In this document: positions 2,846 through 21,128 of the stretch, piece by piece
How positions within the stretch are numbered: the stretch's first letter is position 1
How the letters are laid out: each line of letters starts with the position of its first letter
Origin: Aquisalinus flavus
GTDB taxonomy: Bacteria; Pseudomonadota; Alphaproteobacteria; Caulobacterales; Parvularculaceae
Length of the DNA: 64,000 nt
Direction of reading: 5' to 3'
Assembly: GCF_022559625.1 (NCBI RefSeq)
Contig: NZ_CP042288.1
Coordinates: 644,409-708,408, forward strand
The notes under the pieces: model-generated
The model's database searches: none
What the model was told of the DNA's origin: nothing
The model's input: only the letters and a program-made list of their open reading frames with translations
Translations under genes and position numbers: made by a program

Positions 2846-4714
2846 GTGCTGGCGTGGCTGACAGGACGGCGTAGCAAGACGGCGAAAGCCGGCATCATCT
2901 TCGATGGCTCGCTGCCGGAGATGCCGGTCGAGCCGTGCCTGCCCATTTCCAGCCGCACGACACTCCTCGGCCGCGAGGCCGGCCGCGCCCGCCAGCTTCA
3001 GGGGCGCATCTGGCTGTGCCTGTCCGTCTTTGTCCTGGTCTTTTCAGGCCTCGCCCTGCGCCTTGCCAGTATCACCCTGGTCAACGGAGCGCCGGACAAG
3101 GTGATGGTCGCGACCCGCGCCATCGTCGAGCCGGGTGAACGGCCCGAGATTACCGACCGCAATGGCGTCTCCCTCGCGCTGAACCGTACCGTCACCGGCC
3201 TTGCCATCGACACGAGGAATGTCTGGGACGCGATGGAAACGGCTCAAGGGATCGCCAGCGTCTTCCCGCAAGTCGACCCGGTCGCGCTCGCCCGCCGGAT
3301 CGAGGACAAGAAATACATCATCCTGCGCAATGAATTGACCGCCGAGGAGCAGCGGACCATCCTCACACTGGGCTTGCCCGGCGTGACTTTCCCGGAAACG
3401 ACCAAGCGCGTCTATCCGCAGGGCACGCTCGCAGCCCATGCCGCGGGCTATACGATTGCCGGGCGGGGCGGTGTCGCCGGTCTCGAATTTGTAGCCGATG
3501 ATCATGCCGGCGAAGGCGTGCTCGCGTCCTCCATTGACGTTCGTGCGCAGCAGATCCTCGAAGAGGAAATCCGTGCCGGGATGGAACGCTTCCAGGTCGA
3601 CAGCGCCTGGGGCGTGATCATGAAGGCAAAGACCGGCGAGGTCGTCGCGATTGCCTCGATGCCGTCCTTCAACCCGAACGAGGTCAATGACTCGCCCGCC
3701 GACCACTGGCGCAACCGCGCCATGCAGGACCGCTACGAGCTCGGCTCCGCCTTCAAGGTGATCACGGCGGCGAGCGTGATCGAGGAGGGGATCGCCTCGC
3801 CTGAGACGCTCTATGACGCGCGCATGCCGCTGAAGGTCTATGACCGCACGATCTACGATTATCATCCGCGCCGTGAAATCATGAGCCTGTCGAGGGTCAT
3901 TCAGCATTCGTCGAATATCGGGATTGCCCGCGCCGCGCTCGATCTTGGCCGCGACAAACAGAAAGAATACTTCGCCGCCCTCGGCCTGACCGAAGCGGTG
4001 AAGACCGAGCTGCCGGAAACGCGAGACCCTGACCTGCCGCTGCGTTGGGGGCCGGTCGAGACCGCAACGATTTCCTATGGCCACGGCATTGCCGTCACGC
4101 CGATGCAGCTTACCGCAGCAGTCAGTGCCGTCGTCAATGGCGGCATTTATCGCACGCCGACCTTCCTGAAGGTGGAGGATCAGACCGGCGCAAGCCGCGA
4201 GGGCCGCCGGGTGTTTTCGCTGGAGACATCCGCCAAGATGCGCCTGATCATGCGCCAGGTCATCACCGACGGCACGTCGTCCAAGGCAGAAGCGCCGGGC
4301 TATTATCCCATCGGCAAGACGGCGACCGCCGACAAGCCGGGCATTGGCGGCTACCGCGACAACGCCCGCATCTCGTCCTTTGTGGGCGCGTTCCCCGGCT
4401 ATGACCCGGAATATGTCATCCTCGTCTCCTTCGACGAGCCCCACGGCATCAAGGCGACCTATGGGTACGCGACCGCAGGCTGGGTCGCTGCGCCGGTGTT
4501 CGGCAATATCGTCGCCCGGATGGGCCCGGTGCTGGGCATCGCCCCCGCCCATGACGATCTTGCCTTTGCCCAATTCATGGCGGGTTTGCGCGCTAGCGAG
4601 AAGGTCACCCTTGCCTTGAACGATCAGATCGATGCGAGCGACACAGCCTCGCTGGCGGTTGGCGACGAGATGGATGATGTGGCAAGGCTGCTGGCAAAGG
4701 AGCTTGGCCCATGA
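2846..4714 (+). CDS. ftsI: Peptidoglycan DD-transpeptidase FtsI (PBP3)
   Basis: This 622-aa class B penicillin-binding protein cross-links septal peptidoglycan. It begins with GTG behind a GAGGG SD. One membrane anchor lies near residues 53-75. A PBP dimerisation domain follows (RPEITDRNGVSLALN). In the transpeptidase domain, S301-A-F-K304 is the SxxK acylation motif (ELGSAFK) and S355-S356-N357 is the SxN motif. The third motif reads K491-T492-A493-T494 rather than KTGT, an unusual substitution. The end overlaps murE by four bases (ATGA). Confidence 0.95.
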   Translation: MLAWLTGRRSKTAKAGIIFDGSLPEMPVEPCLPISSRTTLLGREAGRARQLQGRIWLCLSVFVLVFSGLALRLASITLVNGAPDKVMVATRAIVEPGERPEITDRNGVSLALNRTVTGLAIDTRNVWDAMETAQGIASVFPQVDPVALARRIEDKKYIILRNELTAEEQRTILTLGLPGVTFPETTKRVYPQGTLAAHAAGYTIAGRGGVAGLEFVADDHAGEGVLASSIDVRAQQILEEEIRAGMERFQVDSAWGVIMKAKTGEVVAIASMPSFNPNEVNDSPADHWRNRAMQDRYELGSAFKVITAASVIEEGIASPETLYDARMPLKVYDRTIYDYHPRREIMSLSRVIQHSSNIGIARAALDLGRDKQKEYFAALGLTEAVKTELPETRDPDLPLRWGPVETATISYGHGIAVTPMQLTAAVSAVVNGGIYRTPTFLKVEDQTGASREGRRVFSLETSAKMRLIMRQVITDGTSSKAEAPGYYPIGKTATADKPGIGGYRDNARISSFVGAFPGYDPEYVILVSFDEPHGIKATYGYATAGWVAAPVFGNIVARMGPVLGIAPAHDDLAFAQFMAGLRASEKVTLALNDQIDASDTASLAVGDEMDDVARLLAKELGP

Positions 4715-6189
4715 CGACGACACCGATGAAACTCTCCGCCCTGACCGGCCGCACCGGTCTCGGCCAGGACCCCGAAATTACCGGCATGACCGCCGACAGC
4801 CGCGCGGTGCAGCCGGGCTTTCTGTTTGCTGCCCTGCCGGGCACGAAGATGGATGGCGCCGACTTCATTCCGCAGGCGGAGGAGGCGGGGGCCTTCGCCG
4901 TGCTCGGCCTGCCGGGCACAAAGGCCAATGTGCCGGTGATCGAAAGCGACAATCCGCGCCTCGCGCTGGCGCAGTATGCCGCGAAACTCCACCCCGGCCA
5001 GCCGGCGCTGGTTGCCGGCGTGACCGGCACGAATGGCAAGACGTCCATTGCCCGGTTCTGCCAGCAGCTCTGGGGTATGCTTGGCCACAAGGCAGGTTCG
5101 CTCGGCACGCTCGGCGCTTATGCGGCGGGCTATGAATACACGCTGCGCCACACGACGCCGGACCCGGTTGAAATCCATCAGGTGCTGTCGACCATGGCGA
5201 CGCTCGGCACGAGCCATCTGGCGATGGAGGTTTCGAGCCATGGCCTGTCGCAATACCGCGCCGACGGGGTGAAATTCTCGCTCGCCGCCTTTACCAACAT
5301 CACCCAGGACCATCTCGATTATCACCCCGATTTCGACGACTATTTCAACGCCAAGAAACGTCTGTTCACCGAGCTTCTGCCGGAAGGCGGCACGGCGGTC
5401 GTCAATGTCGATGGCGCCGGGTCCGAGGAGATGGGCCGCGCGATCGCCAAGGCCGGCCGCATATTGTTTTCGGTCGGTCGCAAGGGCGCGGATATCCGCC
5501 TGATCGAGACCGCGCCATTGCCCGATGGCACCTCGCTGTCGCTGGAGGCCGGCGATACGCGCTATGACCTGCACCTGCCGCTGATCGGCTATTTCCAGGC
5601 GGAGAACGCGCTCGTCGCTGCCGGGCTGGTCATCGCCTCCGGCCACGATATCGGCCGGGTCATGCCGTTGCTGGAAAAGCTGGACGGCGCGCCGGGCCGC
5701 ATGCAGCTCGCCGACGAGCTTGAATTCGCTGATGGCAAGGCGGGTGTCTATGTCGATTTTGCCCATACGCCGGATGCGATCGAGACCGCGCTGAAGGCGA
5801 TCCGCCCTCACGCCGAAAACCGCATCATCATCATCCTCGGCGCCGGCGGCGACCGCGACAATCGCAAGCGCCCGCTGATGGGCAAGGCCGCGGCCGCTGG
5901 TGCCGACAAGGTTATCGTCACCGACGACAATCCGCGCACAGAAGACCCGGCAGCGATCCGCCGTCAGGTCATGGAAGGATGCCCGGACGCCGAAGAAATA
6001 GGCGGTCGCGAGGCCGCCATCATGGCGGGCCTGAAGGAGTTGAGGGCGGGCGATGTCCTGCTGATCGCTGGCAAGGGGCACGAGTCGGGACAGACCGTGG
6101 GGACGGTCACGCACCCGTTCAACGACCGTGAGGTCGCGCAAAGGCTGGTGGGACAGCTGAAATCTCAAAACGATCAGGATGGGGCCTGA
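4711..6189 (+). CDS. murE: UDP-MurNAc-tripeptide synthetase, meso-DAP type (MurE)
   Basis: This 492-aa Mur ligase adds meso-diaminopimelate to UDP-MurNAc-L-Ala-D-Glu in the cytoplasm. It shows the ATP loop GVTGTNGKTSIARF, AMEVSSHGLSQ, NITQDHLDYHPDFDDYFNAKKRLF with the carbamylatable lysine, and GRMQL. The DDNPRTEDP motif is the established signature of meso-DAP rather than lysine specificity, consistent with a Gram-negative wall. It overlaps ftsI by four bases and its stop overlaps the region of the murF start. Confidence 0.97.
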   Translation: MTTTPMKLSALTGRTGLGQDPEITGMTADSRAVQPGFLFAALPGTKMDGADFIPQAEEAGAFAVLGLPGTKANVPVIESDNPRLALAQYAAKLHPGQPALVAGVTGTNGKTSIARFCQQLWGMLGHKAGSLGTLGAYAAGYEYTLRHTTPDPVEIHQVLSTMATLGTSHLAMEVSSHGLSQYRADGVKFSLAAFTNITQDHLDYHPDFDDYFNAKKRLFTELLPEGGTAVVNVDGAGSEEMGRAIAKAGRILFSVGRKGADIRLIETAPLPDGTSLSLEAGDTRYDLHLPLIGYFQAENALVAAGLVIASGHDIGRVMPLLEKLDGAPGRMQLADELEFADGKAGVYVDFAHTPDAIETALKAIRPHAENRIIIILGAGGDRDNRKRPLMGKAAAAGADKVIVTDDNPRTEDPAAIRRQVMEGCPDAEEIGGREAAIMAGLKELRAGDVLLIAGKGHESGQTVGTVTHPFNDREVAQRLVGQLKSQNDQDGA

Positions 6190-6209
6190 TGGACAAAGGA
6201 GCTTGGGAG

Positions 6210-7664
6210 ATGAGTACTCTATGGAATGCCTATGAGGCTGCCGCTGCGACCGGGGGTGCCCTGTGCGCCCGCGGCGATCTCGGCGGCAATGACGAGATCC
6301 TGCCGGAAGAAAGCTGGATCGCGTCGGGCCTGTCGATCGACACCCGTACGATCCGAAAAGGCGATATCTTCGTCGCGCTGAAGGCCGCCCGTGATGGCCA
6401 CGACTTCGTGCGCAACGCGTTCAAGGCCGGGGCCTCCGCCGCGCTCGTCTCCCGCGCGCCGGAAGACACGCCTGATGGTGCACCGCTGCTGCTGGTTCAG
6501 GACACCCAGAAAGGGCTGGAGGCGCTCGCCGCCGCCGCCCGCGACCGCTGCTTCGGCAAGCTGATCGGCGTCACCGGCTCGGCGGGCAAGACCTCGACCA
6601 AGGAAATGCTCCGCACCATGCTGATGGGGCAGGGCAAGGTTCACGCCGCAGAGAAGAGCTACAACAATCACTGGGGCGTGCCGCTGACGCTGGCCGCGCT
6701 CCAGCCGGACACCGATTTTGGCGTCTTCGAGATCGGCATGAACCATGCAGGCGAGATCACGCCGCTGACCAGTCTCGTGCGTCCGCATGTCGCCATCGTC
6801 ACCACGGTCGCCGCGGCGCATCTGGAATTCTTCGACTCGGTCGCGGGCATTGCCGAGGCGAAGGCGGAAATCATCCTTGGTCTGCGCAAGGGCGGCACGG
6901 CGGTGCTGCCGCTCGACAATGAGCATTTTGCAATCCTCGCGAAGCAGGTTAGCGATATTAATCAGTATGGGCGGGAGATTAAAACGATAACATTCGGTAG
7001 GGCCGAGGGGGCCGACCTGCGCATGCTGGACTATACAGCCACAACACAGGGGCGTGGCACCATCACCGCTGCAATCTTCGGCGAACGGAGGAGTTTCACC
7101 ATCGGCCTCGCCGGGGAGCATCAGGCGATGAACGCCCTTGCCGCGCTCGGCGCGGTAAAGGCTGCGGGCGGCGACCTCGCTCTTGCGATGGAAGCGATCG
7201 CCGGTCACCGCCCGGTCGGGGGCCGCGGCAAGCCGCTCGACCTGAAACTCGACGGCAAGTCCGTCACGCTGCTCGATGAAAGCTACAATGCCAACCCGGC
7301 CTCCATGGCCGCGGCAATCCATGTGCTTGCCTCATGGCAGGGCGCGCAGAAGATCGCGGTCCTCGGCGAGATGCGCGAGCTCGGCGACAATGGCCCGATG
7401 CTGCATGCCGGTCTCGGCCCGCTGCTGGCAAAGGCCGGCGTGACCCGCGTCTTTGCCGCCGGTACGCTGATGAAGCCGATGTTCGACGGCCTGCCGGGTG
7501 CGATGCAAGGCAAATGGGCCGAAACCGCCGCCGATCTCGTTGACAATGTCGCCGCTGACGCCGAAGACGGCGCCGTCATCATGGCCAAGGGCTCCAATGC
7601 CTCCCGCGTTTCCGCCTTCGTCGAGGCGCTGACCGAGCGGGCAGGGGGAGTGCATCAGGAATAA
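6210..7664 (+). CDS. murF: UDP-MurNAc-tripeptide:D-Ala-D-Ala ligase (MurF)
   Basis: MurF adds D-Ala-D-Ala to the UDP-MurNAc tripeptide. Motifs: SIDTRTI and GDIFVALKA in the N-terminal domain, ATP loop [24 protein letters not shown], and [12 protein letters not shown] choose the ATG at 6210 because AAAGGAG (6195-6201) sits eight bases upstream. An in-frame ATG at 6189 (seven more residues, overlapping the murE stop) is the alternative. A short stretch near 6950-7000 uses codons (ATT, ATA, AGG, AAA) unlike the rest of the gene. Confidence 0.96.
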
Positions 7665-7666
7665 TC

Positions 7667-8773
7667 ATGCTTTATCACATCTTCTTCCCTCTCGCAGACG
7701 CGATCCCGATCTTCAACGTCTTCCGCTATCTGACGTTCCGCATGGGTGGCGCGATCATGACGGCGCTGATCATCTGCTTCATCATCGGCCCCTCGCTGAT
7801 CCGCTGGATGCGCGCCCGCCAGGGCAAGGGCCAGCCGATCCGCGCCGACGGCCCGCAGACCCATATCGTCGAGAAGGCCGGCACACCGACCATGGGCGGT
7901 GTCCTGATCCTGATCTCGCTGATCGTCTCCGTCCTGCTCTGGGCCCGGCTCGACAACCCCTATGTCTGGGTCGTCCTCGGCGTCACAGCTGCCTATGGCC
8001 TGCTCGGCTTCGTCGATGACTATCTGAAGGTGAAGAAGCAGAACACGGCGGGCGTGCTCAGCCAGGGCAAGCTGGTCGTGCAGTTCGCGGTCGCGCTGAT
8101 CGCGGGCTATATCTGCATGAAGGTGCTCGGTGCGTCTCCGGAGGTTGACCCTGCAACGGCGAGCTCCGTGCCTCTGCCCTTCTTCAAGGATCTCCTCATC
8201 CCGCTCGGCTTCATGTTCGTGCCTTTCGCGGCTTTCGTGATCGTCGGCGCGTCGAACACGGTGAACCTGACCGACGGTCTCGACGGCCTCGCCATCGTCC
8301 CTGTGATGATCGCGTCGGCCAGCTACATGTTCATCGTCTATCTGACCGGCAACGCGATCTATGCGGAATACCTGCAGATCATCTTCGTGCCCGGCGTCGG
8401 CGAACTGGCCATTGTCTGCGGCGCGATCATCGGGGCGGGGCTCGGCTTCCTCTGGTTCAACGCGCCGCCGGCCATGATCTTCATGGGCGATACCGGCTCG
8501 CTGTCGCTGGGCGGGGCCATCGGCGCAACCGCTGTTGCAGCCAAGCACGAGATCGTGCTCGCCATCATCGGCGGCCTGTTCGTGCTCGAGGGCCTGTCGG
8601 TCATGATCCAGGTCGCCTCGTTCAAGCTGACCGGCAAGCGCGTCTTCCGCATGGCGCCGATCCATCACCATTTCGAGCAAATGGGCTGGAAGGAGCCGAC
8701 CATCGTGATCCGCTTCTGGATCATTTCGGTCATCCTCGCGCTCATCGGCTTGTCGACCCTTAAACTGCGTTAG
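7667..8773 (+). CDS. mraY: Phospho-N-acetylmuramoyl-pentapeptide-transferase MraY
   Basis: This 368-aa polytopic inner-membrane enzyme makes lipid I from UDP-MurNAc-pentapeptide and undecaprenyl phosphate. About ten hydrophobic segments are visible. Family motifs are GTPTMGG (GxPTMGG), the aspartate pair in [14 protein letters not shown], the [10 protein letters not shown] loop, [12 protein letters not shown], and the histidine-rich [15 protein letters not shown] near the C-terminus. Length matches the family. It starts two bases after the murF stop with a CAGGA SD. Confidence 0.98.
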
Positions 8774-8794: not shown

Positions 8795-10207
8795 ATGATT
8801 TCGTTGCGTGCGTATACTGACAAGGCCGTCGGCATCTATGGTGCCGGGTCTGCCGGCCTGTCTGCCCATGCGGCCTTCGCTGCCGCAGGGGCGCACCCGT
8901 TTTTCTGGGACGAGAACGAACAGGTGCGCCAGCGTGTCAGCGCGACCGGCATCAAGTGCATCCCGCCGAAAGACTGGCCGTGGGATGAGCTCGCTGTGAT
9001 CGTGCCGGGCTTCTCGACCCGGCCCGGCTTCGTGCGGGCGACCCGCATTCTCGGGCTGGCGGCGGAACATTCGGTGCCGGTCAGGAGCGATGTCGACCTC
9101 TTCGCAGAGGCGATGGCCGCGAAGACCGCAGCCGAACGCCCGCGCATCGTCGGTATTACCGGCACCCACGGCAAATCCGTCACCGCCGCGCTGATCACCC
9201 ATGTCCTCAATGCGTCGGGGCATGACGCCTGGCTCGGCGGGACGGCAGGCGACAGCGTGCTGAACCTGCCGGAAGGCGGGGCGGGGACGACCTATGTCCT
9301 CGAAATCCTGCCGCAGACGCTGGCCTTCACCCGCCAGCTGCGCTGCGATGCCGGTGTCCTGCTGAACCTCACCGCCCTCGACGTGCGCTACTTCAAGACG
9401 GCGGACAAGGCCGTGCGTGCGGCAACCCGCATCTTCCGTAACCAGAGGGATGACGACGCCATGATCATCGGCGTCGATGATATCCTGAGCCAGAAGATCT
9501 GCACCGCGATCACGGCGAGCTTCAATACCGGCGACAATATCATCGCCGTGTCGGGTGAGGCGACGCTGGGGCTGGGCGTCTTCTCCCTCGACGGGCGCGT
9601 TTTCGATGCGCGGTCGGACAAGACGGCGAGCCTCGGTACGATCACGCGCGCGCCCGGCATTTTCGGCGCCCATTTCAACCAGGCGGCAGCGGCGACTTAT
9701 GCGGTCTGCCTGCATCTCGGCCTGACCGCGCCGTTGATCACCCGCGCGGTGACCGCCTGGCCCGGTCTGCCGGGGCGGCTGTTCTGCATGGGCGACCATC
9801 AGGAAACAGTGTTTTTCGATGATGGCGCAGCGAGCTGGCTGCCATCGACCATCGCCGCGCTGAACGCCGGCGAGGATATTATCTGGATCGGCGGCGGCGA
9901 GCACCGCCAGCGCGACTATGCCCGTCTGCGCGAGGCTGGCGACGGCGTCCTGAAAGCCTTTCTCTATGGCGAGGCGGCAGAACCGATCGCGCGGGCGACC
10001 GCGCGCACTTTCGACAGCGTCCTGTGTGCCAGCCCCGAGGACGCCATCCGCGCGGCATTGAAAGAAGCGAGGCGCCTCGCCGAGGAGGACGATATCGCCA
10101 TGCCCATGGTGCTGTTCTCGCCCGGCTGCCCCGGTGCGGGCCAGGGCGCGAACCAGGCGCTCTTTACCCGGATCGTCCAATCCCTTATCGAGAGTGATGC
10201 CGCATGA
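8795..10207 (+). CDS. murD: MurD-position protein, catalytically degenerate MurD homologue
   Basis: This 470-aa protein lies exactly where murD belongs and is colinear with alphaproteobacterial MurD over its length (e.g. AMIIGVDDILSQKICTAIT). The Walker A loop is intact (G123-THGKS-V129), but the family's ligase signatures are replaced. GGNIG reads GGTAG (148-152). The E(L/V)SS(Y/F)Q motif reads EILPQT (170-175). The NITPDHLDRH motif reads NLTALDVRYF (191-200). The carbamylated-lysine motif AAKxRIF reads RAATRIF (208-214). GLPHR reads GLPGR (324-328). DSKATN reads DGAASW (343-348). SPACAS reads SPGCPG (442-447). The frame is open and well coded, so it is not a decayed pseudogene. Whether it still ligates D-Glu is doubtful; a structural, regulatory or altered-specificity role is inferred. 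Its SD (GGGAG) is 12 bases from the ATG, which is long. Confidence 0.75.
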   Translation: MISLRAYTDKAVGIYGAGSAGLSAHAAFAAAGAHPFFWDENEQVRQRVSATGIKCIPPKDWPWDELAVIVPGFSTRPGFVRATRILGLAAEHSVPVRSDVDLFAEAMAAKTAAERPRIVGITGTHGKSVTAALITHVLNASGHDAWLGGTAGDSVLNLPEGGAGTTYVLEILPQTLAFTRQLRCDAGVLLNLTALDVRYFKTADKAVRAATRIFRNQRDDDAMIIGVDDILSQKICTAITASFNTGDNIIAVSGEATLGLGVFSLDGRVFDARSDKTASLGTITRAPGIFGAHFNQAAAATYAVCLHLGLTAPLITRAVTAWPGLPGRLFCMGDHQETVFFDDGAASWLPSTIAALNAGEDIIWIGGGEHRQRDYARLREAGDGVLKAFLYGEAAEPIARATARTFDSVLCASPEDAIRAALKEARRLAEEDDIAMPMVLFSPGCPGAGQGANQALFTRIVQSLIESDAA

Positions 10208-11391
10208 ATACGCTGACCGCCTATATCTCCGATCTGCGTCTGACCTCGCGCGATTCCATGTCGGCACTCGGGCGCTGGTGGTGGTCGATCGATCATTGGC
10301 TGCTTTATGCCACCGGCGCGCTCATCCTGATGGGCATCGTTCTGTCCTTCGCCGCCGGTCCCGCCTCGGCCATGCGTATCGGCATCGACAACACCAATCA
10401 TTTCATTATCAAGCACATGATGTTCATCATTCCGGCTGTCGGACTGATGATGCTGATCTCCTTTCTCACGCCGCTGCAGGCGCGCCGGGTCGGTGTCGTC
10501 GTGTTCGCCGTGATGCTGGTCATGATCGTTGCTGCCCTGTTGTTCGGGCCGACGATCAAGGGCGCGCATCGTTGGCTGCCGCTCGGCCCGATCGGGATCC
10601 AGCCTTCCGAATTCGCCAAGGCCGGTTTCGTCATCGCTGCCGCCTGGCTGATGGCCGAAGGCGCGAAGGAGAAGAAATTTCCCGGCGGTTTGATGGCGCT
10701 CGGCTGCTACGGCATGTTTGCGGGGCTGCTCATCGCCCAGCCGGATTACGGCCAATGGGCGCTCGTCACCGCCGTCTGGGCGATCATGTTCTTCATCGCC
10801 GGGTGGAGCTGGTTCTGGATCATTGCGCTCGGTTGTACCGCGGTCGGCGCGCTCTATATGGGTTACCTCTATGCGCCCCATATCGCCGCGCGGATCGACA
10901 CCTTCCTCAACCCGGCCTCCGGCGACACCTATCAGGTCGACAAGGCGGTGGAAGCGATCCGCAATGGCGGCGCCTTCGGTCATGATTTCGGGCAGGAGCC
11001 GGGCGCGGCTGCCGATGCGGTGAAGTACCAGCTGCCGGATTCCCATACGGATTTCATCTTTGCCGTTGCGGGCGAGGAGTTCGGCTTCTTCCTCTGCCTC
11101 GTCATCCTCGCGCTCTATGGGTTTTTCGTCTGTCGCGCCTTCATGCTGGCAGCGCGCAAGCAGTCGGTCTTCATCCAGACCGCCGTGTGCGGGCTCGCGG
11201 CGATGATCGGCCTGCAGGCGATCGTCAATATCGGTGTGAACCTGCGCGTCCTGCCGGCCAAGGGTATGACGCTGCCTTTTATCTCCTATGGCGGATCCTC
11301 GTTGCTGGCGACCGGCCTTGCCATCGGCCTGATCCTCGCCCTGACCCGCAAGCAGCCCGGACATATGAGCCGCCGGGAAACTCTGGCTTGA
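10204..11391 (+). CDS. ftsW: Septal peptidoglycan glycosyltransferase FtsW
   Basis: A 395-aa SEDS-family polytopic membrane protein that polymerises septal glycan strands with FtsI. Hydrophobic segments number about ten. SEDS signatures are GAHRWLPLGPIGIQPSEFAK, AQPDYGQ, the extracellular loop LPDSHTDFIFAVAGEEFGF (the catalytic Asp of the family lies in this LPxxHTD loop) and LPAKGMTLPFISYGGSS. It overlaps the preceding murD-like gene by four bases (ATGA), implying coupled translation. Confidence 0.97.
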   Translation: MNTLTAYISDLRLTSRDSMSALGRWWWSIDHWLLYATGALILMGIVLSFAAGPASAMRIGIDNTNHFIIKHMMFIIPAVGLMMLISFLTPLQARRVGVVVFAVMLVMIVAALLFGPTIKGAHRWLPLGPIGIQPSEFAKAGFVIAAAWLMAEGAKEKKFPGGLMALGCYGMFAGLLIAQPDYGQWALVTAVWAIMFFIAGWSWFWIIALGCTAVGALYMGYLYAPHIAARIDTFLNPASGDTYQVDKAVEAIRNGGAFGHDFGQEPGAAADAVKYQLPDSHTDFIFAVAGEEFGFFLCLVILALYGFFVCRAFMLAARKQSVFIQTAVCGLAAMIGLQAIVNIGVNLRVLPAKGMTLPFISYGGSSLLATGLAIGLILALTRKQPGHMSRRETLA

Positions 11392-11486
11392 TCGCCTGAC
11401 TTCATGGTGAAACCTTGATGCTGCCAAGAAACTGCCCTTTAACGGGGTATTCTGGCGCCGGTTGATTGGGCGTATTGGAGGCAGGA

Positions 11487-12590
11487 ATGGTCGATATCGA
11501 GGGCAGGCGGGCGCTGATCGCCCTGGCGGCGGGCGGCACCGGCGGACACATGTTCCCGGCCGAGGCGCTGGCAGAGGAGATGAAACGCCGCGGCTGGCGC
11601 GTCCTTCTGTTCACGGACGACCGCGGCATGCGCTTCGGCGACTCGTTTCCCGCAGACGAGATCGTGACCCTGCAGGCGGCCAATCCGAATGTTCCGGGCG
11701 CCCGGGCCAAGGTGGGTGCGGCGTTTGCCATGACCGGTGGTATCATCACCGCGCTTCAGGCCTATCGCAGGCACAAGCCGAGTATCGCTGTCGGCTTTGG
11801 CGGTTATCCATCCGCGCCCGCCATGGCCGGGGCGAGGATCATGAAGGTGCCTTACGGGGTGCATGAGCAGAACGCCGTCATCGGCCGGGTCAACCGCCTG
11901 GTCGCGCCGCAGGCGAGGTTTGTTGCCCACGCCTTCCCGATGCTGGAGCGTCTGCCCGCCCGGGTGAGGGGCGAAGTGATCGAGACCGGCAATCCGGTGC
12001 GCGATGCGATCCGCGCCGTCGCCGGCAGTCCCTATCCCGATGCTTCGGACAGGCTGAACCTTCTCGTGTTCGGCGGCAGCCAGGGCGCGAGCCTGTTCTC
12101 CCGCATCGTGCCGGATGCGCTCGCCGCCCTGCCGGCGGAGTTGCGCCAGCGCATCAGCGTCACCCAGCAGGTGCGCGACGAGGAAAAGGACCAGGTCGCC
12201 GCCACCTATCAGGGCGCAGGCATCGAGGCGGACCTCGCACCGTTCTTCAAGGATATCCCTGCGCGCCTGACGGCGGCCCATCTCGTCATCGCCCGCGCCG
12301 GCGCGTCCTCGGTGACGGAGCTGGCCACCGTCGGGCGCCCGTCGATCCTTGTACCGCTCGGCATCGCCATGGACGATCACCAGACCGGCAACGCCTCGGT
12401 TCTCGTCGCGGCGGGCGGGGCTGACATGATCCCCGAGCGGCAATTCGACGCCAATGTGCTTTCGGCCAGGCTGGGCGAGCTCTTGACCGATCCGGGCCGA
12501 CTGGCGCAAATGGCTGCTGCCGCTTCGACAATCGCGCCGGATCAGGCGGTATCGCGCCTCGCCGATATCGTCACCCGGCTCGCCCGCTAG
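11487..12590 (+). CDS. murG: UDP-GlcNAc:lipid I N-acetylglucosaminyltransferase MurG
   Basis: This 367-aa GT28 glycosyltransferase converts lipid I to lipid II at the inner face of the inner membrane. Its motifs are [15 protein letters not shown] (residues ~14-28), [33 protein letters not shown], and [22 protein letters not shown] split across the C-terminal nucleotide-binding domain. The ATG at 11487 is chosen for its GGAGGCAGGA SD; a TTG 21 bases earlier is in frame but lacks one. A 95-bp gap separates it from ftsW. Confidence 0.97.
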
Positions 12591-12637: not shown

Positions 12638-14068
12638 ATGAGTGACTCCCGCAAGATCAAGATCAGGCTGCCATTTTCTGCGGGGGTGGTGCATTTCGTC
12701 GGCATAGGCGGGATCGGTATGAGCGGCATGGCCGAGGTGATGCACAATCTGGGCTACGAGGTTCAGGGGTCGGATATTGCCGAGTCGCCCAACATCGAGC
12801 GACTGCGCGAAAAGGGGATGACCGTCATGATCGGCCACAGGCCCGAGAATATCGACGGCGCCGACGCGGTCGTCGTCTCGACCGCGATCAGGCCGTCCAA
12901 CCCCGAAGTCGCCGCCGCCCGCGCCCGCCACATCCCGGTCGTGCGCCGGGCCAATATGCTGGCCGAGCTGATGCGCCTGAAATGGAATATCTGCGTCGCC
13001 GGCACTCATGGCAAGACGACCACGACGTCGATGATCGCCGCGCTTCTGGACTCCGCCGGTCTCGACCCGACCGTCATCAATGGCGGCGTCATCAACGCCT
13101 ATGGCACCAATGCGCGCCTCGGCGAGGGTGACTGGATGGTTGTCGAGGCCGATGAGAGCGACGGCACCTTCATCCGCCTGCCGACGACCGTCGGCGTCAT
13201 CACTAATATCGACCCCGAACATCTTGACCATTATGGTGACTTCGACAAGCTGCGCGCCGCCTTCGACCAGTTCATCGAGAACACACCCTTCTACGGATTC
13301 GGCGTCGTCTGTCTCGATCATCCGGAAGTGCAGGCCCTCGTCGGGCGCATCACCGATCGCCGCCTCATCACCTACGGCATGAACCCGCAGGCCGATGTGC
13401 GGGCGGAGAATATGTCGTTCGCGGAAGGAAAGGCGCATTTCGACATCGTCTTCCGCAAGCGCGGCCACGTCGAAAGCCGGATCGAGGATGTGCAGCTGCC
13501 GATGCCAGGCCGCCACAATGTGCTCAACGCGCTCGCTGCCGCCATCGTTGCGCGCGAGGTCGGCGCCAATGACGAGGCGATCCGGAAGGGCTTTGCCAAT
13601 TTCAACGGCGTCAAACGCCGCTTCTCACTGGCCGGCACCTGGAATGGCGTCACCATCATCGATGACTACGGCCACCACCCGGTTGAGATTTCCGCCGTTC
13701 TCGCCGCCGCCCGAACGGTCTGCGACGGCAAGGTCATCGCCGTCTTGCAGCCGCACCGCTATTCCCGCCTGCGCGACCTGTTCAACGATTTCTGCGCCTG
13801 CGTGAACGAGGCTGACACGGTCATCGTCTCCGACGTCTATCCCGCCGGGGAAAGCCCGATCGAGGGCTTTGACCGCGACACGCTGGTCGCCGGCATCACC
13901 GGACGCGGCCATCGCGATGTCATCGCCATGGAGAACTGGGACGATCTTGCCGCGCTGGTTCAGGGCAAGGCCGTGGCAGGTGATTACGTCGTCTTTCTGG
14001 GGGCCGGCGACGTGACCAAGCATGCCGCGAGCCTGCAGGGTCGGCTCGAAGCGCTGGGGATGGCGTGA
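12638..14068 (+). CDS. murC: UDP-MurNAc:L-alanine ligase MurC
   Basis: This 476-aa Mur ligase adds L-Ala to UDP-MurNAc. It shows the nucleotide-binding start [16 protein letters not shown] (residues 19-34), ATP loop [10 protein letters not shown] (121-130), [35 protein letters not shown], and [11 protein letters not shown]. All catalytic motifs are intact, which makes the loss in the murD-position neighbour stand out. It is followed by murB with a one-base stop/start overlap (TGATG). Confidence 0.97.
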
Positions 14069-16773: not shown

Positions 16774-18096
16774 ATGTTGCGCACCCTGAACACATCGCGG
16801 GCGAAAGCCTTTTCCGGTCTCAACCTCGACAATGGTATTACCGGTGTCATCGATATCGGCACGTCCAAAGTGTCCTGCTTCATCATCCGCAAGGGTCTCG
16901 GCTCGGTCGATGGCCCGGAGATGGAAGTCATCGGCGTCGGCCACCAGGCGGCCGCCGGGGTCGGTGAGGGCGGCCTCGTCGAGCTTGCCGCCGACAGCGC
17001 CATCCGCGCCGCCGTCGACAAGGCCGAGCGTATGGCCGGCGAACGGCTCGAGGCCTATCACATCGCCATCTGCTCACGTCACATCGCCTGCCGCCGCGTC
17101 GCCGTCGATCTCGACCTCGACGGTGTCGGCGTCGCGCAGGAAGATATCGACGCCTGCTTCAGGGAAGGCGCGCGCCTTGCTGCGGCCAGCGCGATGGTCC
17201 CGCTGCATATCTGGCCGTCGCGCTTTACCATCGATGGCGTCGGCGGCGTGCGCGACCCGCGCGGCATCGAATGCGAAAACCTGTCAGTGGAAATGGTCTC
17301 GCTGTCTGCATCGGCGACGGCGATCAAGGCCGTGAAGGCCTGCCTCGACCGCTGCAACCTGAAAGCCGCGAGCTTCATCGCCGCTCCCTATGCCTCGGCG
17401 CTCGCCGTGCTGCACGAGGAAGAGCTCGACATGGGTGTGCTGTGCCTCGACATGGGCGCGAACCTGACCGGCTTTTCGATCTTCCGCGACGGGGCGCTCG
17501 TCTTTGCCGGTGCCGTGCCCGTTGGCAGCGATCACATCACCCGCGACATCGCGCTCGGCCTTGGCATTTCCCGCGATGCGGCCGAGCGTCTGAAGACCGT
17601 TCACGGCACGGCCTGGTGCGTGCCTGGAGACGAGGGCCGTCTCATCGACCTACCGCAGGATGCAGGCGCGCGTGATCCGAATATTCCGGTTACGGAACTT
17701 GCCGGTATCATTGGCCCGCGCCTGGAAGAGACGCTGAAGCTGGTTTTCGAGCGCATCGGCAAGGCGGGCATCGACATGGGCCGCATTCATCGCACAGTGC
17801 TGACCGGCGGTGGCAGCCAGCTCAATGGTGCGGCAGAGATGATGGAGACCCTGTTCAAGGTCCGCGTCCGCACCGGCCGGGCGATCAACCATTATGGCGC
17901 GCCGGAGGCGGCAAGCGGTTGTGCGTTTGCTGTCTGCTCGGGCATGGTCGGCCATCTCGCGACTCAGCCCGACACGCGCACAGCGCCCAAGTCGCCGCTG
18001 ATGACCGGCCATCTCGATGGTCACGAGACGGAAGTACCGACACTGCCTGGCGGCCTCATGGGCCGCGCGGTAAACTGGCTGCGCGTGAATTTCTGA
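16774..18096 (+). CDS. ftsA: Cell division protein FtsA
   Basis: This 440-aa actin-fold ATPase tethers FtsZ filaments to the inner membrane. The N-terminus has a phosphate-1 motif GVIDIGTSKVSCFI. SHVT-type FtsA-specific sequence occurs around residues 95-140, the adenosine region is VLTGGGSQLNGAAEMM, and the C-terminus ends with an amphipathic helix GLMGRAVNWLRVNF that would bind the membrane. In most relatives ftsZ follows directly; here an alcohol dehydrogenase gene intervenes. Confidence 0.95.
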   Translation: MLRTLNTSRAKAFSGLNLDNGITGVIDIGTSKVSCFIIRKGLGSVDGPEMEVIGVGHQAAAGVGEGGLVELAADSAIRAAVDKAERMAGERLEAYHIAICSRHIACRRVAVDLDLDGVGVAQEDIDACFREGARLAAASAMVPLHIWPSRFTIDGVGGVRDPRGIECENLSVEMVSLSASATAIKAVKACLDRCNLKAASFIAAPYASALAVLHEEELDMGVLCLDMGANLTGFSIFRDGALVFAGAVPVGSDHITRDIALGLGISRDAAERLKTVHGTAWCVPGDEGRLIDLPQDAGARDPNIPVTELAGIIGPRLEETLKLVFERIGKAGIDMGRIHRTVLTGGGSQLNGAAEMMETLFKVRVRTGRAINHYGAPEAASGCAFAVCSGMVGHLATQPDTRTAPKSPLMTGHLDGHETEVPTLPGGLMGRAVNWLRVNF

Positions 18097-18191: not shown

Positions 18192-19382
18192 ATGAAAGCC
18201 GTCGTCTTTCACGGTGTCGGCGATATCCGCCTCGATACCGTTTCCGATCCCGAGATTTCCGATAGCCGCGATGCCATCGTGCGCATCACCAACAGCGCCA
18301 TTTGCGGCACCGATCTTCACTTCGTGCGCGGCACGATGGGCGGGCTGAAGGAAGGCCAGATCCTCGGCCACGAGGCGATCGGTATCATTGAGGAAGTCGG
18401 CAAGGGCGTGCGCAATTTCAAACCGGGCGACCGCGTCGTCATCCCCTCCACCGTCTCCTGCGGCGGCTGTTCCTATTGCCGCTCCGGCTATACCGGCCAG
18501 TGCGACGAGGCCAATCCCAATGGCAAGCGTGCCGGCACGGCGTTTTACGGCGGACCGGAAGCAGCCGGCGGGTTCGATGGCCTGCAGGCCGAATACGCCC
18601 GCATTCCCTATGCCAACACATCGCTGGTGCGCCTGCCATCGTCCGTGACCGACGATCAGGCGATCATGTTGTCGGACATCTATCCAACCGGCTATTTCGG
18701 CGCAGACATGGCCGAGATCAGCCAGGGCGACACGGTCGCCGTGTTCGGCTGCGGTCCGGTCGGCCAGTTCGCCGTCATCAGCGCCTATCAGCTTGGCGCC
18801 GCCCGCGTCATCGCGGTCGATGGTCACGAGGACCGGCTGGAGCGCGCCCGTTTTCACGGTGCCGAGACGGTCAACTTCAACACGGAAGACCCGGTCGAGG
18901 CCATTGTGGAGTTGACCAACGGCATCGGCGTCGACCGCGCCATCGATGCCGTCGGCGTCGATGCCGAGGTGCCCAAGTCCGGCCCCGCCAAACAGGACCC
19001 GCAGGATGACATGGTCGCGCAGATCGTCGAGGAATCCGGTCAGGACGGCACGCTGTGGAAACCGGGCGACGGGCCGATGATGGCGACCAAATGGGCAGTC
19101 GCTGCGCTGGCCAAGGCCGGCACTCTGTCGATCATCGGCGTCTATCCGCCGAACGACAATTTCTTTCCCATCGGTCAGGCGATGAACAAGAGCCTGTCGA
19201 TCAACATGGGCAATTGCAATCATCGCAGCTACATTCCGCACCTGATCGAAATGGTCGAGCGCGGCAATGTCGATCCGGCGAAGATCATCACGCAGGACGA
19301 GGAGATGGTCGACGCGATCACGGCCTACGAACAGTTCGACCAGCGCAAGTCCGGCTGGGTCAAGGTCGAGTTGGAGGTTTGA
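18192..19382 (+). CDS. Zinc-dependent alcohol dehydrogenase (MDR family)
   Basis: A 396-aa medium-chain dehydrogenase/reductase. The catalytic zinc site is CGTDLHFVRG with GHEAIG. The structural zinc site is the cysteine cluster CGGCSYCRSGYTGQC (residues ~93-107). The NAD(P) fold has VAVFGCGPVGQFAV and the acidic end of the second strand is VDGHEDRLE, favouring NAD. The GTLSIIGVYPPNDNFFPIGQAMNKSL tail resembles the formaldehyde-dehydrogenase-like branch. AGAGGAG lies before the ATG. Its position between ftsA and ftsZ is not explained by division functions; insertion of a metabolic gene is the likely explanation. Substrate unknown. Confidence 0.88.
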   Translation: MKAVVFHGVGDIRLDTVSDPEISDSRDAIVRITNSAICGTDLHFVRGTMGGLKEGQILGHEAIGIIEEVGKGVRNFKPGDRVVIPSTVSCGGCSYCRSGYTGQCDEANPNGKRAGTAFYGGPEAAGGFDGLQAEYARIPYANTSLVRLPSSVTDDQAIMLSDIYPTGYFGADMAEISQGDTVAVFGCGPVGQFAVISAYQLGAARVIAVDGHEDRLERARFHGAETVNFNTEDPVEAIVELTNGIGVDRAIDAVGVDAEVPKSGPAKQDPQDDMVAQIVEESGQDGTLWKPGDGPMMATKWAVAALAKAGTLSIIGVYPPNDNFFPIGQAMNKSLSINMGNCNHRSYIPHLIEMVERGNVDPAKIITQDEEMVDAITAYEQFDQRKSGWVKVELEV

Positions 19383-19479
19383 CGCAAAAGTCCACCCCCT
19401 TAATTTGCTCCGTTTACAGTTTTGCGGGCAGCAACCTGCCCGCGAATCTGCATAAGTTTTCTTATTGGTAAACGCGCTG

Positions 19480-19494
19480 TTAACTCTTTGGTAA
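19480..19494 (+). promoter_or_regulatory. CtrA-like box upstream of ftsZ
   Basis: TTAA-CTCTTTG-GTAA matches TTAA-N7-TTAA at seven of eight positions, 56 bp before the ftsZ ATG, in an AT-rich stretch (19,440-19,520). CtrA repression of ftsZ is established in Caulobacter. The box suggests that ftsZ has its own cell-cycle-regulated promoter downstream of the inserted dehydrogenase. Confidence 0.45.
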
Positions 19495-19550
19495 GAGATA
19501 TCACCGATTCTTTAACCAACATGTCTAGCCAGGCAATCGGAGCTTTTGTA

Positions 19551-21128
19551 ATGCCATTGAATCTCAGTGTACCGACAGTGACCGAGCTGAAACCGCGCAT
19601 CTGCGTGATCGGCGTCGGCGGTGCCGGAGGCAACGCGGTCAACAACATGATCGAGAGCCAGCTTGAGGGCGTGGAATTCGTCGTTGCCAATACCGATGCG
19701 CAGGCCGTGGGCCTCGCGCTCGCCGAGCACAAGATCCAGCTGGGCACGGGCGTGACCAAGGGCCTCGGGGCCGGCTCCCAGCCGCAGATCGGCAAGGCTG
19801 CCGCAGAGGAAAGCCTCGCCGATGTCATGGAGCTGATCAACGGCGCCAACATGCTGTTCATCACCGCCGGCATGGGCGGCGGCACCGGCACCGGCGCCGC
19901 ACCGGTCATCGCCAAGGCCGCGCGTGAACAGGGCATTCTTACCGTCGGTGTCGTCACCAAGCCGTTCCACTTCGAAGGTGCGCGCCGCATGCGCATCGCG
20001 GAGGAAGGGATCGCCGAACTGCAAAAGCATGTCGACACGCTGCTGATTATCCCGAATCAGAACCTGTTCCGCGTCGCCGACGACAATACGACCTTCGCCG
20101 ACGCTTTCGCCATGGCTGACGAAGTGCTGCATTCCGGCGTTCGCGGCATTACCGATCTGATGATCGTTCCGGGCCTGATCAATCTCGACTTTGCCGATGT
20201 GCGCACGGTCATGTCGGAAATGGGCAAGGCGATGATGGGCACTGGCGAGGCCGAAGGCGACAAGCGCGCCGCCGAAGCCGCCGAAGCCGCGATCTCCAAC
20301 CCGCTGCTCGACGAAGTGTCGATGAAAGGCGCCAAGGGCGTTCTCATCAACATCACCGGCGGTCTCGACATGAAACTGTTCGAGGTCGACGAAGCCGCCA
20401 ACCGCATCCGCTCCGAAGTCGATCCTGACGCCAATATCATCGTCGGCTCGACCTTCTCGTCCGAGTTGGAAGGCAAGATGCGCGTGTCCGTCGTCGCGAC
20501 CGGCATTGACGCCGCGGAACGGCAGAAGGCCGAGGAGGCGAAGGCCCAGGAAGCCGCTGCCCAGAATGCAAGGGCGGAAGCAAAGCCGTGGCTCGGTAAT
20601 ATTGCTCCTGCGAAACCTGCCGCTGAAGCCGCGGTCGAGATCTCGGACGATGAAGACGATAGCCTGTTCGCCAGCGCATCCGCCGGGGAAACCGACCCTG
20701 CGCCGCGGGCTGCCGTTCAGGCGCCGCAATTGCGCAAGCCATCGGCACCGATCCAGCGCCCCGCCGCCCGCACCGAGCCGAAAGACATCCTGAAAACACC
20801 GGAAGGCAACCGGGTTCGCGACGTCCACTCGCGCATCATTGAGATGCTGACCGAGGATGAGGGCAGGGCCCATTCGGGCCAGGGCCCCGCGCGCCAGCGG
20901 CCGAATCCGTTTCATGAGCAGACGAAGCGTCCAATTCACGGTGCTCTGAACCTGCTGAAGGAAACCTTTGGTGGCCAGCATGAGCAGCCGCCCCGCAGCC
21001 GCAAGTCGGTTCAATCCGAGCGGGCGCAGCCGCCGCGCCGCGAGCGCGAGGCCAAGGACCTGTTCCAGGAAGATGATGACAGCGATCTGGAAATCCCGGC
21101 ATTCCTGCGCCGCAACGGCAGCGAATAG
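19551..21128 (+). CDS. ftsZ: Cell division protein FtsZ
   Basis: This 525-aa tubulin-like GTPase forms the Z ring. The N-terminus is [30 protein letters not shown]. The GTP-binding tubulin signature [12 protein letters not shown] is near residues 107-118, with [11 protein letters not shown] and a T7-like loop later. A ~200-residue acidic, proline/alanine-rich linker leads to the conserved C-terminal peptide [10 protein letters not shown], which binds FtsA. Length and the long linker match alphaproteobacterial FtsZ. The ATG at 19551 is preceded by CGGAG; an upstream in-frame ATG at 19521 would only add non-conserved residues. Confidence 0.96.

Follow-up and report, generated by a model that had tools for sequence, protein, structure and literature searches.

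Why does a bacterium keep, in the murD slot of its division and cell wall (dcw) gene cluster, an intact reading frame for a protein that lacks many conserved MurD residues, and how would such a bacterium supply its wall with D-glutamate (D-Glu)? The question arises in Aquisalinus flavus, a member of the Parvularculaceae whose genome is a single contig of 3,135,332 bases, and specifically in a 64,000-nucleotide stretch of it (the window; contig NZ_CP042288.1, positions 644,409 to 708,408), where a degenerate MurD-family protein, here called pseudo-MurD, is encoded with mraY upstream and ftsW downstream (Table 1). Our findings suggest that pseudo-MurD is a conserved Mur-ligase pseudoenzyme with a non-catalytic place in an assembly of Mur ligases, MraY, MurG and FtsW, an explanation that we consider the best overall and to which we give a probability of about 55%.

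An earlier note on this DNA described a 470-residue MurD-type protein with replaced motifs, and every motif that it quoted is in place, those listed in Table 1 together with GGTAG (residues 148-152), EILPQT (170-175) and DGAASW (343-348); the frame opens with ATG and stays open throughout, and the Walker A motif is kept, as was also claimed. The best NCBIfam match of the protein is TIGR01087 (murD), at 172.3 bits against a curated cut-off of 211.95. We defined a conserved set of 81 positions, those at which E. coli MurD agrees with 95% or more of 38 canonical relatives, and alignment shows 39 of these to be lost, including (E. coli numbering from Met1) N139, D183, H184, K199, N269, N272, K320, T322, N323, K349, S416 and F423. 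The claim that nearly all ligase residues are gone slightly overstates the case, since the P-loop residues G115 and K116 are kept, as are E158, R303 and D318. At the position of H184, which we take to be the metal-site histidine, stands D196, and at that of K199, presumably the carbamylated lysine, A210. The glutamate site, to which we assign T322 and S416, has likewise changed (D183 to L195, K349 to R371, T322 to S347, S416 to G447). Apart from the positions discussed in PMC8788868, the roles given here to MurD catalytic residues are our own assumption.

We rejected the number of losses at conserved positions as proof of inactivity, because the MurD2-like protein of the same genome, introduced below, differs at 36 of the 81, so a count by itself does not show that a ligase is dead; that protein nonetheless keeps N139, E158, H184, K199, T322 and S416. 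From the residues concerned, we consider it likely, with good confidence, that pseudo-MurD has lost D-Glu ligase activity. The fold appears to be retained: an AlphaFold2 model built from eight sequences (predicted local distance difference test 84.2, predicted template modelling score 0.72) has only MurD structures among its best 30 VIA-align rows (Z 25.9-31.5 over 407-433 residues), the large root-mean-square deviation of 9.7-13.4 Å being consistent with differing domain placement and carrying nothing on function. A sequencing or assembly error, which would have undone the argument, is rejected, as the separate assembly of Aquisalinus luteolus NH6-79, the nearest named relative (94% identical), has the same motifs and differs in them only by DGASSW for DGAASW and SPGCPGT for SPGCPGA. 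Searching plasmids with pseudo-MurD gave 29 records, all below 60% identity; five are listed at 29-31%, one of them annotated murD.

Where, then, would D-Glu come from? The earlier note had proposed a pseudoenzyme, with D-Glu ligation supplied by a second canonical MurD in which PDHLDRH and DSKATN are intact. No such gene is found in the complete genome, where a search with PF08245 returns six loci: MurE, MurF, MurC, a protein that we presume from its sequence type to be FolC-like, pseudo-MurD and a MurD2-like protein. The pseudoenzyme reading of that note is well supported, by the selection described below and by the presence of a second MurD-family gene; this gene, however, is MurD2-like and sits beside a MurL-like gene. 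The MurD2-like protein (about 1793.4-1794.9 kb) scores 235.4 bits with TIGR01087, above the cut-off, and its open reading frame (ORF) as called overlaps the end of the adjoining MurL-like ORF. The latter matches nearly the full NF041275 (MurL) profile at 279.8 bits (E 2.9e-83); since this model, named for Xanthomonadales, has a curated cut-off of 700, we call the protein MurL-like. At both stereospecificity positions the MurD2-like protein carries the changes D183E and K349R (positions of PMC8788868 renumbered by +1), and changes of this type are reported, in the parts of that work cited here, to set a preference for L-Glu (PMC8788868). The same parts describe Xanthomonas oryzae MurD2 ligating L-Glu, after which MurL epimerises, and name Parvularcula among the carriers of the pair (PMC8788868).

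Other sources of D-Glu were sought in the genome, and neither a glutamate racemase (MurI) nor a D-amino-acid transaminase (Dat) is found above cut-off. The sole glutamate racemase match, at 28.3 bits (cut-off 146.65), is to an aspartate/glutamate racemase-type protein (L207:1885-2577, genome position about 724.4-725.1 kb) that scores 229.3 with TIGR00035 (cut-off 93.1) and 283.4 with PRK10200 (cut-off 417), and that might conceivably make D-Glu. We surveyed 60 genomes of the family, 20 MurL-positive and 40 MurL-negative. Glutamate racemase is above cut-off in 0 of the 60, versus 8 of 14 control genomes, and weak racemase matches occur in 13 of the 60, MurL-positive and MurL-negative alike. As only 5 of the 60 pass the curated Dat cut-off of 277.45, we set our own threshold at 223 bits, in the gap between 163 and 223; by this measure Dat is present in 36 of the 40 MurL-negative genomes and in none of the MurL-positive ones (best score there 161 bits), and the four MurL-negative genomes without a match (G035, G052, G053 and G054) are 76-89% complete. 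As the second MurD-family gene is of the MurD2 type and lies next to a MurL-like one, the most likely route to D-Glu is ligation of L-Glu combined with epimerisation, and not a second canonical MurD. On these sequence matches a switch to the MurD2/MurL pathway, whose enzymology is known only from other organisms, is very likely.

Selection on pseudo-MurD is strong. Nei-Gojobori estimates between the window genome and A. luteolus give a ratio of nonsynonymous to synonymous rates (dN/dS) of 0.065, next to 0.071 for murE, 0.083 for murF, 0.149 for murG, 0.020 for mraY, 0.044 for ftsW and 0.074 for MurD2; the three domains of pseudo-MurD give 0.073, 0.057 and 0.068, and among 146 single-change codons 16 carry a nonsynonymous change (P 8e-58 against neutrality). 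A pair from genus g5 gives 0.079 or 0.084, depending on the trimming. In neutral simulations the frame remained free of stops in 0 of 1000 runs at 0.53 changes per site and in 3 of 1000 at 0.27, and these results together with dN/dS reject a decaying pseudogene for the Aquisalinus pair. Loss of catalytic residues is thus combined with purifying selection, as expected of a pseudoenzyme, and we are highly confident that pseudo-MurD has a selected function at the protein level.

Across the family, degeneration of the dcw MurD accompanies MurL. It keeps at most 44 of the 81 conserved positions in 15 of the MurL-positive genomes, is undetected in three, and keeps 71 in G005 and 76 in G049; among the MurL-negative genomes it keeps at least 78 in 35, is degenerate in two (G040 and G043) and has no match in three (G009, G052 and G053). 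Degenerate copies thus occur in 17 family genomes, 15 of them MurL-positive. The dcw MurD of G005 (L033:1429-2940) is changed at E158, D183, K199, K320, K349 and S416, and that of G049 (L016:1420-2832) at N114 and S416 among others, S416P being common to both; from their residues, both appear to be at an earlier stage of this degeneration.

The degenerate copies have also come to share residues. In all 17 that were aligned, the P-loop positions G126 and K127 (E. coli G115 and K116) and D318 are kept, with R303 kept in 15 and E158 in 13, and D183, H184, K320, K349 and the domain-1 positions S72 and P73 are lost, as are S416 in 16 and K199 in 15. The 12 long-form copies have D101, G327, D342, G366 and G444 in common, residues rare in 36 copies from genera g2, g4 and g7, and newly conserve E255 (in an SGEA block) and a DD motif. 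Four Parvularcula-group genomes (G027, G002, G040 and G031; L076 to L079) have a short-form degenerate MurD, which sits on a very long branch and has lost E158 too; these copies share four of the five switched residues. The retention of frame, P-loop and new residues under purifying selection argues for a functional pseudoenzyme.

The history of this change was traced on a species tree of mraY and ftsW, with three genomes from outside the family as root; both this tree and the MurD tree omit 14 of the 36 rows of genera g2, g4 and g7. The MurL-positive genera g1, g3, g5 and g8 group at 86/91 (not starred), and G005 joins the canonical genera g2, g4 and g7 with support of 100/97 and is placed as sister to them at 81/74; MurL presence requires at least three changes. 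The 17 degenerate copies of the family fall into one group (96/89) in the MurD tree, and copies from a second family of the order, f5, join it at 82/78; the branches of f5 and of the short form are very long, so that long-branch attraction may explain why f5 joins and could contribute to the grouping of the degenerate copies themselves. In the MurL tree the proteins of f5, G005 and the g1/g3/g5/g8 group cluster, and that of G049 falls with other families. The clustering suggests that MurL may be old in the order, the dcw MurD being released when Dat was lost; separate gains of MurL are possible.

We propose that an ancestor of the lineage would have changed its source of cell-wall D-Glu, the usual route, in which D-Glu made by Dat is ligated by MurD, giving way to ligation of L-Glu by MurD2 and epimerisation by MurL. 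The dcw MurD would thereby have been free to lose ligase residues, as it has done; in most relatives examined it is nonetheless retained, with its frame, its P-loop and newly conserved residues kept under purifying selection, in the window genome as strongly as murE and murF. As a non-catalytic protein it would occupy a position in the cytoplasmic assembly of Mur ligases, MraY, MurG and FtsW or regulate that assembly, possibly switching with bound nucleotide. In the parts of PMC6420597 cited here, MurD, MurE and MurF of Thermotoga maritima are reported to bind MurG (PMC6420597), and this binding, together with the position in the cluster, makes such an assembly our best guess. For the structural or regulatory role in Mur/divisome assembly taken by itself, we would put the odds at about even.

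Several observations weigh against this reading. Pseudo-MurD has lost N269 and N272, which we assume to lie on the adenine side. Constraint is real but looser in other lineages: five Parvularcula-group (g3) pairs give dN/dS of 0.22-0.43 and a pair from f5 gives 0.32, with synonymous sites near saturation, and these values exceed those of ftsW (0.14-0.24) in four of the five pairs compared (four from g3 and the f5 pair) and approach murF in some. Three same-genus MurL-positive genomes (G015, G025 and G029) have no detectable dcw MurD, so its role would be dispensable there: mraY is followed by ftsW without a gene-sized gap in G015, and the contig stretch upstream of ftsW in G029 shows neither mraY nor MurD. 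Two genomes, G040 and G043, combine a degenerate dcw MurD (27 and 42 of 81 positions kept) with a Dat match, and neither MurL nor an above-cut-off MurD is detected in them; at face value the degenerate protein is their only MurD. G040 is 89% complete in 320 contigs and G043 is 6% contaminated in 700 contigs, and base composition and neighbours of their Dat contigs, when compared, did not settle whether these are contaminants. The G040 Dat match (L205, contig C302) adjoins genes resembling those of D-glutamate or dipeptide metabolism, by names that we presume, and such neighbours suggest that this Dat may be catabolic or a contaminant. As a separate observation, the slot in G025 (L147:1199-6436, contig C79) holds about 5.9 kb of other genes, including a 714-residue ATPase-like ORF, a small secreted-type protein, a TetR-like regulator and a hydrolase-like ORF, all named here by our own presumption.

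Evidence from other families also bears on it. MurL is present in 17 of 150 genomes sampled from the order, three of these in f5. In all three f5 genomes the mraY-ftsW region contains a long ORF that resembles MurD weakly (26-45 bits against a canonical relative; the two scanned with TIGR01087 score 29.7 and 21.1 bits) and has no P-loop, so that nucleotide binding would not be needed there; in G170 the fetched stretch begins inside the ORF and stops short of mraY. MurL occurs in 20 of 398 genomes sampled from the phylum, the window's included, and 16 of the other 19 were checked with the murD profile: all match over the cut-off, 15 once and G284 twice. The same profile gives no match between the presumed murF and murC in G208, G266, G455 (f47), G328, G387, G558 (f68) and G555, though very diverged remnants can be missed, as was the G087 copy; the spacing of 3.7-3.9 kb, judged with gene lengths from the window, leaves little room there for murD beside mraY, ftsW and murG. 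The f47 and f68 genomes pass the Xanthomonadales MurL cut-off and are probably of Xanthomonadales. G284 (L208, L224) combines a strong MurD of 355 bits in a dcw-like setting with another MurD-family gene of 294 bits next to MurL, and is a possible intermediate with both routes. The same-genus losses and the MurL-positive genomes of other families speak against a universal need for a dead MurD.

The kept residues invite a reading in which pseudo-MurD still hydrolyses ATP and joins another acceptor and donor in a new active site built from newly conserved residues, an alternative that the earlier note had also raised. The P-loop, D318, R303 and E158 would be accounted for, E255 and the DD motif could be part of such a site, and the MurD2-like protein illustrates how many conserved positions can change in a Mur ligase; yet H184, S72 and P73 are gone from every degenerate copy and K199 from most, and no single residue replaces the lysine in over a third of the 12 long-form copies, which makes a changed substrate unlikely. 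That pseudo-MurD would still ligate D-Glu in the cell, by way of an unusual active site, is suggested by G040 and G043, but these assemblies are poor, MurL is present in 8 of 8 better genomes of their genus, the glutamate-site and catalytic losses are nearly invariant among the degenerate copies, and the MurL-positive genomes lack a Dat match, so we give this idea hardly any credence.

Because the degenerate form goes with MurL in most genomes that have it, pseudo-MurD might instead be a non-catalytic partner that binds MurD2 or MurL and activates or positions the replacing enzymes; MurL-positive genomes without it, in the same genus and in other families, and the lack of linkage between its gene and the murL-murD2 locus make this rather improbable. 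A passenger role, in which the gene is an operon spacer kept only for expression of ftsW and murG downstream and now drifting, would fit the overlap with ftsW, the looser constraint in the g3 and f5 pairs and the gapless arrangement in G015. Such coupling would hold the frame open and not the residues, however, and the dN/dS near 1 that it predicts is not seen, amino-acid constraint in the Aquisalinus pair equalling that of murE and murF with neutrality firmly rejected; we regard it as very unlikely. We therefore favor the assembly pseudoenzyme. More tentatively, and with some doubt, MurD may have a second, non-catalytic assembly role that is separable from ligation, a dead MurD being kept in the slot after the MurD2/MurL takeover because the protein as such is required by the assembly; its retention in the Parvularculaceae and in f5 would be either independent or of common origin.

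Table 1. Pseudo-MurD, its motifs and the neighboring dcw genes, in window coordinates (residue numbers of pseudo-MurD; E. coli positions numbered from Met1)
Feature	Coordinates	Strand	Basis
Degenerate MurD-family protein (pseudo-MurD), 470 aa	8795..10207	+	dcw murD slot; TIGR01087 172.3 bits, alignment, dN/dS
Walker A GTHGKS, residues 123-128, kept	9161..9178	+	fits P-loop GxxGK(S/T)
E170 = E. coli E158, kept	9302..9304	+	alignment
ALDVRYF 194-200 replaces PDHLDRH; D183, H184 positions lost	9374..9394	+	alignment
RAATRIF 208-214; K199 position = A210	9416..9436	+	alignment
GLPGR 324-328; H302 position = G327, common to degenerate copies	9764..9778	+	alignment
DDGAASW 342-348 replaces NDSKATN; N317 to D342 (common to degenerate copies), D318 kept = D343, K320 lost	9818..9838	+	
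SPGCPG 442-447 replaces SPACAS; S416 position lost, A413 to G444	10118..10135	+	alignment
murE, canonical	4711..6189	+	583.8 bits, curated cut-off 476
murF, canonical	6189..7664	+	374.2 bits, curated cut-off 288.6
mraY, upstream neighbor	7667..8773	+	position and homology
ftsW, downstream neighbor, 4-base overlap with pseudo-MurD ORF	10204..11391	+	TIGR02614 313.2 bits, slightly below cut-off 337.5
murG	11466..12590	+	position and presumed sequence type
murC, canonical	12638..14068	+	528 bits, curated cut-off 335.1

MurC, MurE and MurF around pseudo-MurD were said to be canonical, and each indeed passes its curated cut-off. Further along the cluster, a zinc-dependent alcohol/formaldehyde dehydrogenase-like gene (18192-19382, plus strand; best model 193 bits, below cut-off) sits between ftsA (16774-18096) and ftsZ (19422-21128). 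A. luteolus (L242) has the same order of ftsA, dehydrogenase-like gene and ftsZ; in G021 and G015, neither the dehydrogenase-like gene nor ftsZ lies within the 4.6 and 5.7 kb fetched beyond ftsA.

The MurD2/MurL pathway is already known; for a conserved pseudo-MurD in the dcw cluster we found no description in the open-licence literature, judged by titles and the opening of abstracts, and the cited parts of the MurD2/MurL review do not describe the fate of the dcw MurD (PMC8788868). Two long-standing questions are whether the Mur ligases belong to a physical complex and what keeps the order of the dcw genes so conserved; both are difficult to address, as these enzymes are essential. In the present lineage the catalytic residues of MurD have been removed and the protein stays under strong selection, a natural case of separation of function, and the same-genus genomes that lost pseudo-MurD provide a matched comparison. 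In addition, a dcw gene annotated as "murD" in a bacterium with MurL can encode a protein that is not a ligase, which matters for drug-target lists and metabolic models.

Set beside canonical MurD, pseudo-MurD has the same place between mraY and ftsW, the same predicted fold, the P-loop and the positions of E158, R303 and D318, whereas it scores below the curated cut-off and lacks the D-Glu, metal-histidine and carbamate-lysine positions; its genomic setting differs as well, with a MurD2-like/MurL-like pair and no D-Glu source above cut-off. The adjacent MurL-like and MurD2-like genes resemble the pathway described for Xanthomonas oryzae in the cited parts of PMC8788868, yet the f47 and f68 genomes, probably Xanthomonadales, have no MurD match in the slot. 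The MurG-scaffolded Mur complexes of PMC6420597 differ from what we propose in having active enzymes, and a pseudoenzyme is not mentioned in the parts of that paper cited here (PMC6420597). A further likeness is PAP11, the plastid MurE homologue of flowering plants, which according to the cited parts of PMC12681378 serves the plastid RNA polymerase as a peripheral subunit (PMC12681378). Although PAP11 is related to a different ligase and works in a eukaryotic organelle without a dcw operon, its place in that polymerase indicates that Mur ligase homologues can take on structural roles.
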